This document shows, one piece after another, positions 44,412 to 46,421 of a stretch of DNA of 64,000 bases; position 1 is the first letter of the stretch, and each line of letters begins with the position of its first letter. The notes under the pieces are model-generated. The model made no database searches, was not told where the DNA came from, and saw nothing but the letters and a program-made list of their open reading frames with translations. Source of the DNA: a bacterium HR29. GTDB lineage: Bacteria; Chloroflexota; Dehalococcoidia; Tepidiformales; Tepidiformaceae. The DNA is taken from contig BEIF01000002.1 of NCBI GenBank assembly GCA_002898215.1, forward strand, positions 1 through 64,000, written 5' to 3'. Both the position numbers and the translations under genes were made by a program.

Positions 44412-44458
44412 ACCCCGATCATCGGCAGCTTCGCAGGGCTTCCCTGCCCTCCTGCCAG

Positions 44459-44488
44459 TTGACCCGTCCGGTCCGCCAACCGTAGCCT
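44459..44488 (+). promoter_or_regulatory. Promoter of the Mn riboswitch-terC operon
   Basis: TTGACC (44459-44464), 18 bp and TAGCCT (44483-44488) form the best sigma70-type promoter in the window; transcription would start around 44494, at the first helix of the riboswitch. Confidence 0.6.
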
Positions 44489-44634
44489 CGGAATGACAGG
44501 GGGAGTAACCGCGGCCCCGCAAGGGCCGAGGCCGGTCGTCAGGACGCGCCCCCAGCGCCGGCCGGCCGCGAGCGCTCGACTCGTCGGTGAGACCCTGGCC
44601 ACACCACCGCGTGGTTGCGGCCAGGGTCGTTTCG
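44489..44634 (+). promoter_or_regulatory. yybP-ykoY manganese riboswitch
   Basis: The conserved yybP-ykoY elements appear in the right order: GGGGAGTA (44500-44507), GTCGTCA near 44538-44544, and GGTGAGACC (44586-44594). Helices fit: a closing helix CGGAAT/GTTTCG (44489-44494 with 44629-44634), a hairpin GGCCC-CGCAA-GGGCC (44513-44527), and the long final hairpin GACCCTGGCC / GGCCAGGGTC (44591-44600 with 44619-44628). The downstream transporter is TerC, a class this Mn2+ riboswitch often controls. Whether it acts on transcription or translation is not clear: no T-tract follows and the next ATG is 40 nt away. Confidence 0.82.
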
Positions 44635-44674
44635 TACCCGGGCCGCTCCCGCGCAGGCTCGGAGCTGGGAGCAC

Positions 44675-45016
44675 ATGCTCGACGAACTCTTCGAAGCGCT
44701 CTTCGAACGACGGAAGAAGCGGTACCACTACGAGGAGGAGTGGGAACCCCCGAGAGGGCAGCCCCGCCGCCACTGGGAGGACGTGCCGCCAGGGGGAGGG
44801 AAGCGGCACCCGGGGCGGCCACCACGCCGCTACCAGGATGATGACGGCCGGTACGAGTACTCCGCCCGTTACCCCCGGAGGGGGTGGGACGAGGAGGAGT
44901 GGGACGACGACTGGGAGCACCGTTACCGGTACCGCCGCGGAGACCGGTACGCCCTACCGCCGAAGAAGAAGCCTTGGTGGAAGAAGTTGGGCGACCTGTT
45001 CGAGTTCGGAGATTAG
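44675..45016 (+). CDS. Small, highly charged Arg/Asp/Glu/Tyr-rich protein
   Basis: 113 residues, MLDELFEALFERRKKRYHYE then a disordered-looking mixed-charge region (RPPRRYQDDDGRYEYSARYP, EEEWDDDWEHRYRYRRGD) and a terminal KKKPWWKKLGDLFEFGD that could bind a membrane surface. Repeated Asp/Glu/His clusters could bind metal. GGGAG stands four bases before the ATG. It sits between the manganese riboswitch and terC (3 bp gap), so it is very likely in the same metal response. No family recognised. Confidence 0.8.
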   Translation: MLDELFEALFERRKKRYHYEEEWEPPRGQPRRHWEDVPPGGGKRHPGRPPRRYQDDDGRYEYSARYPRRGWDEEEWDDDWEHRYRYRRGDRYALPPKKKPWWKKLGDLFEFGD

Positions 45017-45019
45017 CCA

Positions 45020-45982
45020 ATGGACGTCCTGATGACCATCGCGCCCTGGGCAGGCTTCCTCGCCCTGGTCGGGGTTCTCCTGGCAATCGACCTGGGCGTC
45101 TTCCATCGTGAGGCCCACGAGGTCGGGCGGCGAGAGGCGCTCGTCTGGAGCATCGTGTGGATTGGCCTGGCGCTTATCTTCAATGCCGGCGTCTACCTCG
45201 TGCGCGGCTTCGAGGACGGCCTCCGCTGGACCACCGGCTACATCGTCGAGAAGTCGCTGAGCGTCGACAACATCTTCGTCTTCGTGCTCATCTTCTCCGC
45301 CTTCGCGGTGCCAGCCGCGTACCAGCATCGCGTGCTCTTCTGGGGCATCGTGGGGGCGTTGGTGATGCGCGCCATCCTCATCGCCTTCGCCGGCTTTCTC
45401 CTCTCCACCCTCCATTTCACCGTCTACCTCTTCGGCGCGTTCCTGGTGTTCACCGGCATCCGCTTCCTGCGCGAGGAGCAGCACGAGCCCGACCTGCGCC
45501 GAAGCCGGGTGCTGCGGCTCGCCCGGCGAATCTTTCCAGTGACTGACGGCTACCGGGGCCAGAAGTTCTTCGTGCGGGAGCACGGGGTGCGGTACGCGAC
45601 GCCGCTCTTCCTCGTGCTCATCTTCATCGAAATGACGGACCTCGCCTTCGCGGTCGATTCGGTGCCGGCTATCTACGCCATCACCGACGACCCCTTCATC
45701 GTCTTCACCTCGAACATCTTCGCCATCCTGGGGCTGCGGGCCCTCTACTTCGTGGTGGCCGGCTACCTGCGCTCCATAGCGCTGCTACGGCCGGCACTGG
45801 CAGTGATCCTCGTCTTCGTCGGCGGAAAGATGCTCGCGTCCGACTTCTACAAGGTCCACCCGGCCTTCTCCCTCGCCTTCATCGTGTCGGTGCTCGTGGC
45901 GGCCGTTGTCGGCTCCGCCCTCCTCCGCAGACGGGAGGCTGCACACCCGCCGACGCCGGCGGGAGCCCCCGGCGCGGAGTGA
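45020..45982 (+). CDS. TerC/Alx-family transporter, probable Mn2+ exporter
   Basis: 320 residues and about nine membrane helices. Family signatures: AIDLGVFHREAHEVG, WTTGYIVEKSLSVDNIFVFV and FIEMTDLAFAVDSVPAIYAIT, whose Asp/Glu residues in the membrane are the likely metal sites. TerC/Alx relatives (MeeF, YceF, Alx) export manganese, some during metalation of secreted enzymes. The upstream riboswitch supports manganese. Coupled to the charged small protein gene. Confidence 0.93.
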   Translation: MDVLMTIAPWAGFLALVGVLLAIDLGVFHREAHEVGRREALVWSIVWIGLALIFNAGVYLVRGFEDGLRWTTGYIVEKSLSVDNIFVFVLIFSAFAVPAAYQHRVLFWGIVGALVMRAILIAFAGFLLSTLHFTVYLFGAFLVFTGIRFLREEQHEPDLRRSRVLRLARRIFPVTDGYRGQKFFVREHGVRYATPLFLVLIFIEMTDLAFAVDSVPAIYAITDDPFIVFTSNIFAILGLRALYFVVAGYLRSIALLRPALAVILVFVGGKMLASDFYKVHPAFSLAFIVSVLVAAVVGSALLRRREAAHPPTPAGAPGAE

Positions 45983-46052: not shown

Positions 46053-46421
46053 GTGTCGGAACTCGAGGCGCTCGTCACGAAGGCTATCGCTGCCCACGGC
46101 CAGTGGAAGATTCGCCTGCGCCAGGCAATCGAAACGGGGAAGAGCGAATGGACCGTCGACCAGGTGAAGGTCGACGACCAGTGCGTCCTCGGCAAGTGGA
46201 TTTACGGCGATGCCGTGGTCCGCTTCCCGGGCGACTCGCTCGTCCGGGAGATTCGAGAGCTGCACCGGGAGTTCCACCAGGAGGCGGCGAAGGTGCTCTC
46301 GTTGGCGCTCATGGGCCGAAAAGCCGAGGCGGAGCGGTTGATGGAGCAGGGGAGCGCCTACGCCCGCATTTCCGGCTCGCTGGTTCGTGCCCTGCAGAAG
46401 CTGGGGCAGAAGGCGGCCTGA
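46053..46421 (+). CDS. Stand-alone CZB-domain zinc-binding protein
   Basis: 122 residues. The CZB pattern is complete: His15 (AHGQWKIRLR), Cys44 in DDQCVLGKWIYG, His71 and His75 (LHREFHQEAAK). CZB domains bind zinc very tightly and usually sit at the end of chemoreceptors or diguanylate cyclases; here the domain is the whole protein. GTG start with GGGGAGG eight bases upstream; extension upstream would run into terC. A role as zinc sensor or buffer, or partner of a separate signalling enzyme, is possible. Confidence 0.85.
   Translation: MSELEALVTKAIAAHGQWKIRLRQAIETGKSEWTVDQVKVDDQCVLGKWIYGDAVVRFPGDSLVREIRELHREFHQEAAKVLSLALMGRKAEAERLMEQGSAYARISGSLVRALQKLGQKAA

Follow-up and report, generated by a model that had tools for sequence, protein, structure and literature searches.

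Manganese riboswitches of the yybP-ykoY class (Rfam RF00080) include experimentally studied elements. In the solved aptamers of Lactococcus lactis and Xanthomonas oryzae, loop L3 reads UCAAUUC and ACAUACU, respectively, and the adenosine that contacts Mn2+ is the third nucleotide (PMC6754395). Switching in L. lactis is a competition between helix P1.1 and a terminator, where binding of Mn2+ stabilizes P1.1 and leads to read-through (PMC11087558). The leader of E. coli alx is reported to be a Mn-sensing riboswitch (PMC9603457). The TerC proteins, to which Alx belongs, have been described as Mn exporters (sometimes minor ones) and as metalating factors for exported enzymes, and their role has been called controversial (PMC10550928, PMC13274385).

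The locus relevant to this report lies in a 64,000-nucleotide stretch of DNA from bacterium HR29 (Chloroflexota, Dehalococcoidia, Tepidiformaceae; GenBank contig BEIF01000002.1, positions 1 to 64,000), referred to below as the window. Its leader at 44495–44646 is very probably a divergent yybP-ykoY (Mn2+) riboswitch that controls an operon of two genes, the first for a small charged protein and the second for an Alx-type TerC. The computed basis for this reading is the architecture of the aptamer, its conservation and covariation, the cross-detection of E. coli mntP and alx, and an overlap between the 3′ strand of P1.1 and a conserved downstream hairpin. Abundant manganese probably turns on both genes of the operon. 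Mn-responsive control of TerC is thus predicted for the Tepidiforma group of Dehalococcoidia.

Organization of the locus

The features of the locus are collected in Table 1. The gene order given in the first-pass annotation, from riboswitch to 113-residue protein to TerC, agrees with a direct reading of the sequence, as do the sequence and spacing of its promoter. A similar pair, TTGAC(A/C)-16/18-TAnnnT, occupies the equivalent site just 5′ of the aptamer in most relatives, although the window pair fails a strict sigma-70 scan. A consensus promoter/terminator scan likewise returned no matches in the window or in the related locus L014. The latter has a hairpin followed by TTTTTT, yet was missed by the terminator scan; its stem is interrupted, and the scan seemingly does not permit interrupted stems.

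Table 1. Features of the candidate manganese-responsive locus, in window coordinates
Feature	Position	Strand	Evidence or remarks
Locus as a whole	44459–45982	+	Promoter, riboswitch leader, 113-aa ORF and terC, in that order
Candidate promoter: -35 TTGACC (44459–44464), 18-nt spacer, -10 TAGCCT (44483–44488)	44459–44488	+	Direct reading
Predicted Mn2+ riboswitch aptamer, yybP-ykoY class, four-way junction, 105 nt	44495–44599	+	Held-out covariance model R2 and covariation
Switch helix P1.1, 5′ strand CAGGG; partner CCCTG at 44593–44597	44497–44501	+	Fold; covariation in helix 1
Motif GGGGAGTA	44500–44507	+	Direct reading
L1 loop, 5′ part, GGAGTA	44502–44507	+	Invariant in alignment
P1.2, 5′ strand ACC; partner GGT at 44586–44588	44508–44510	+	A-U, G-U and U-A variants among relatives
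Motif GTCGTCA	44535–44541	+	Direct reading
L3 loop UCAGGAC	44539–44545	+	CGUCA invariant in alignment
Motif GTGAGACC	44587–44594	+	Direct reading
Hairpin A (CCCTGGCC...GGCCAGGG), proposed OFF state	44593–44626	+	-23.9 kcal/mol; 5′ arm overlaps P1.1 3′ strand
Hairpin B (GCGGCCAGGGT/ACCCGGGCCGC), alternative to A	44617–44646	+	-19.7 kcal/mol; constrained fold
Small charged protein, 113 aa	44675–45016	+	ORF; homologues; codon-position GC
TerC/Alx-family membrane protein, 320 aa	45020–45982	+	ORF 3 bases after small ORF; TIGR03718, Pfam TerC

At loci L005, L007, L010 and L024 of relatives (also at L006 and L009), the -35 and -10 elements flank an inverted repeat, ATACGACannnaTGTCGTAT in most of them, placed as an operator for a repressor would be; it is not evident in the window promoter. 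Just 5′ of the latter, at 44433–44452, is a GC palindrome, GCAGGGCTTCCCTGC. A PhotoRC-I match to this segment, which at 19.2 bits stays below the cut-off of 45, was dismissed as a simple GC palindrome outside the riboswitch.

Architecture and conservation of the aptamer

The conserved yybP-ykoY motifs noted in the first reading stand where it placed them. The string that combines all three has a single copy in the window, and none of 100 dinucleotide shuffles contained it. The riboswitch stretch is 78% GC, and helices arise commonly by chance in such DNA. Nonetheless, the probability of a mere coincidence of motifs in GC-rich DNA is negligible given the shuffles, and this explanation is already refuted by conservation. 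Of 22 loci gathered through terC matches in 61 genomes of the same family and class (Dehalococcoidia, Tepidiforma group), 18 carry the element upstream of terC.

Constrained folds yield a single architecture: switch helix P1.1, loop L1 (GGAGUA/NAGA), P1.2 (ACC/GGU), P2, P3.1 capped by a 7-nt L3 (UCANNAC), P3.2 (GCGC/GCGC) and P4. The first reading's count of three helices was therefore too low. Both the four-way junction of P1.2, P2, P3 and P4, with its covarying helices, and the combination of an L1 GGGGAGUA with a 7-nt L3 that holds an invariant, Mn-contacting adenosine are shared with the RF00080 class, including E. coli alx and mntP, as judged from the alignment and published structure descriptions. 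The L3 strings of L. lactis and X. oryzae line up with that of the window, such that A44541 aligns with the Mn2+-contacting A41 and A48 of the respective aptamers. One change counts against the window, since its L3 departs from the UCANYAC of relatives at an otherwise pyrimidine position.

Covariation was assessed with 17 sequences in a structure-based alignment with N padding in the loops; a plain MAFFT and RNAalifold alignment had been dropped, as it misaligned P2 and P4. Because the alignment was segmented by folds of the same sequences, its pair counts lean towards the structure, and the following values are to be read with that in mind: 30 pairs with 92.7% of cells paired, changes on both sides in 16 of them, and a covariation score of 0.453, compared to 0.149 for shuffled alignments and at most 0.067 when partners were slid.

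Detection by covariance models

Two covariance models were built from these elements, one including the window (R1) and one without it (R2). The held-out model, R2, matches the window element over its full length with 48.3 bits (E = 2.3e-9), and the next-best match in the window reaches only 14.8 bits. It also recovers the E. coli leaders of mntP (36.4 bits) and alx (26.9 bits), both at full model length, so the window shares a profile with experimentally studied members of the class.

RF00080 itself behaves differently. At E ≤ 10 it matched neither the window stretch, nor 12 loci of relatives, nor this site in the window's own genome, and nothing in 294 genomes of the class exceeded its cut-off. 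The window thus falls short of the gathering score, but that threshold serves detection in the database and is not a fair criterion for belonging to the class. Among control leaders of E. coli K-12, mntP (L040) obtained 41.6 bits where the gathering score is 45, and alx (L041) went unfound at E ≤ 10 with the Rfam 15 model. The first-pass annotation had named the lack of a significant covariance-model hit as evidence against its reading, and for RF00080 that is formally what was found. However, since RF00080 misses alx too, a missing match does not refute a Mn riboswitch, and the match of the held-out model points the other way. The current Rfam model evidently misses Tepidiforma-group elements, and even E. 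coli alx. The new models offer a usable replacement for GC-rich Chloroflexota.

A conserved structured RNA that merely resembles a Mn riboswitch, such as a protein-binding leader or an attenuator, would account for the silence of RF00080. Such a look-alike is very improbable, in view of the equal silence on alx, the R2 match, the covariation, and gene contexts typical of Mn riboswitches. The earlier assignment of a yybP-ykoY-class riboswitch ahead of the small ORF and terC is instead borne out by the held-out model, covariation and conservation in relatives.

R1 has matches in 26 of the 294 genomes from the class and in 33 of 400 from the phylum. Four full-length or near-full-length RF00080 matches below threshold in class genomes (L069, L070, L071 and L073) are also matched by R1; one of them, L073, is the element that precedes terC in a relative. 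Judged from its sequence, the window element is genuine, and represents a divergent form of an established riboswitch class before a known kind of transporter. Its resemblance to the class extends to short strings, with E. coli alx carrying GGGGAGUAAC and CGUCAUUACG, which are closely similar to those of the window, and to the terC/alx gene downstream. In contrast to the class, it is very GC-rich, its short P3.2 is nearly fixed as GCGC/GCGC, the Rfam 15 model is blind to it, its first gene encodes a small charged protein, and its hairpin is not followed by a T-run.

Expression platform and proposed switching

The 3′ strand of P1.1 (44593–44597) doubles as the 5′ arm of hairpin A. This sharing of a strand between P1.1 and the hairpin of the expression platform is a trait of transcriptional members of the class. 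An equivalent of hairpin A is present in nearly all relatives, and in the Tepidiforma-type loci L011, L012, L014 and L016 it is followed by a run of six to seven T residues, i.e., an intrinsic terminator. Neither direct reading nor the scan revealed a T-run 3′ of hairpin A in the window.

According to fold predictions, a window transcript that ends at 44605 folds as a complete aptamer, and hairpin A, once transcribed, displaces P1.1. Conversely, if P1.1 is imposed in a constrained fold, hairpin B forms in place of A. Because P1.1 and hairpin A exclude each other, and since this matches the mechanism of L. lactis, Mn2+ should turn expression ON. In the proposed sequence of events, Mn2+ bound between L1 and L3 would stabilize P1.1, leaving 44593–44597 unable to build hairpin A; hairpin B would form instead and the operon would be expressed. 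In the absence of Mn2+, hairpin A would form and expression would fall. The OFF step in Tepidiforma-type relatives would be intrinsic termination. That of the window may differ because no T-run follows hairpin A: termination could depend on Rho, a weak terminator could act, or control could be translational. TerC would then lower cytosolic Mn2+ or hand Mn2+ to exported proteins. The small protein might be induced by Mn and serve as a partner or buffer, which is guesswork based on gene order and composition.

TerC and gene contexts across the phylum

The TerC of the window scores 390 bits with TIGR03718 (R_switched_Alx), well above the curated cut-off of 246.4, and 173 bits with Pfam TerC. Across 315 aa it shares 46% identity with E. 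coli Alx. Unlike in the Alx/TerC family, its gene is second in the operon, not first. The riboswitch had been taken to give the transporter a firm function in Mn2+ export. A Mn-linked role of this TerC is well supported, but “firm” export is too strong, since the literature is divided on what TerC proteins do; export by the window protein is likely. The stretch just after terC, 46053–46421 on the + strand, encodes a small protein that bears a chemoreceptor zinc-binding (CZB) domain.

Mn riboswitches typically control TerC, P-type ATPase and UPF0016 genes, and other contexts are additional or less usual. Downstream of the model matches, TerC is found in most cases, and the remainder includes CaCA (Na+/Ca2+-type) exchangers, P-type ATPases and a YkoY-type TerC. 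A GDT1/UPF0016 gene follows the sub-threshold RF00080 match at L069. MgtC is found in one genus; at L068 and L109, a MgtC-family gene takes the place of terC in the operon of riboswitch and small protein. At two separate loci (L032 and L083), the first gene after a riboswitch-like element encodes a Zn_peptidase_2 (YugP-like) membrane metallopeptidase.

Contexts such as MgtC, CaCA-exchanger and P-type ATPase genes are not exclusive to manganese, and together with the G in L3 of the window they could suggest that the yybP-ykoY fold has been kept while its ligand changed or its specificity broadened, e.g., to Mg2+, Ca2+ or several divalent metals. This is improbable, as the Mn-contacting adenosine and the L1/L3 core are invariant and both E. 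coli leaders, mntP and alx, are found by the models. Moreover, yybP-ykoY control is likewise predicted for a CaCA-type gene, yrbG, of V. vulnificus.

The 113-residue charged protein

The family of the small protein is uncharacterized and riboswitch-linked, and is the least familiar part of the locus. Its ORF looks coding, with GC contents of 0.70, 0.46 and 0.83 at the three codon positions. The product is 47% D/E/K/R with a net charge of about +1, and had no matches in Pfam or NCBIfam. A single-sequence structure prediction gave a mean pLDDT of 58.6, with only the terminal helices (residues 3–16 and 100–109) near 70.

A profile built from 16 relatives and searched against 119 genomes detected homologues in 17. 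The gene lies directly 3′ of the riboswitch at all 16 profile loci and also at L109, which is outside the profile. It stays with the riboswitch where MgtC replaces TerC, as well as at L054, where TerC was not found nearby. An uncharacterized small-protein family is thereby tied to manganese.

A TFIIB-type zinc ribbon (PF13453) was considered for the protein and rejected: there is no Pfam match and no cysteine, and only the C-terminal tail is similar. Like the short PF13453 proteins beside terC or the Mn riboswitch at L117, L141 and L071, it is small with a charged linker, and it shares their basic stretch, which precedes a hydrophobic C terminus resembling LxxLF(D/E)F (KKKPWWKKLGDLFEFGD in the window, RKKKGGFLGELFEFGD in L118). 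In contrast to them, the window protein and its close relatives lack the zinc ribbon and have a different N-terminal helix (MLDELFEALFER). The likeness does not establish common descent, as charged tails of low complexity may arise by convergence, and a shared role for the two kinds of protein is a working idea. A literature search found no paper tying TerC or Mn riboswitches to zinc-ribbon tail proteins, and the window's own genome has no PF13453 match.

Tentatively, the 113-residue protein may represent a new family of Mn-riboswitch-controlled polyampholytes, with two short amphipathic helices and a disordered charged linker. It could buffer Mn2+ or assist the transporter as a soluble partner, and thereby fill the role that TFIIB-zinc-ribbon tail proteins have in terC operons of other Chloroflexota; this proposal is rather doubtful as a whole. 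Zinc-ribbon genes follow terC at L117 and L141 (in the order riboswitch, terC, zinc ribbon at L141), and one lies directly after the riboswitch at L071. At L059 (about 1702–1810), the riboswitch is immediately followed by a TFIIB-type zinc-ribbon gene that is apparently frameshifted in the assembly.
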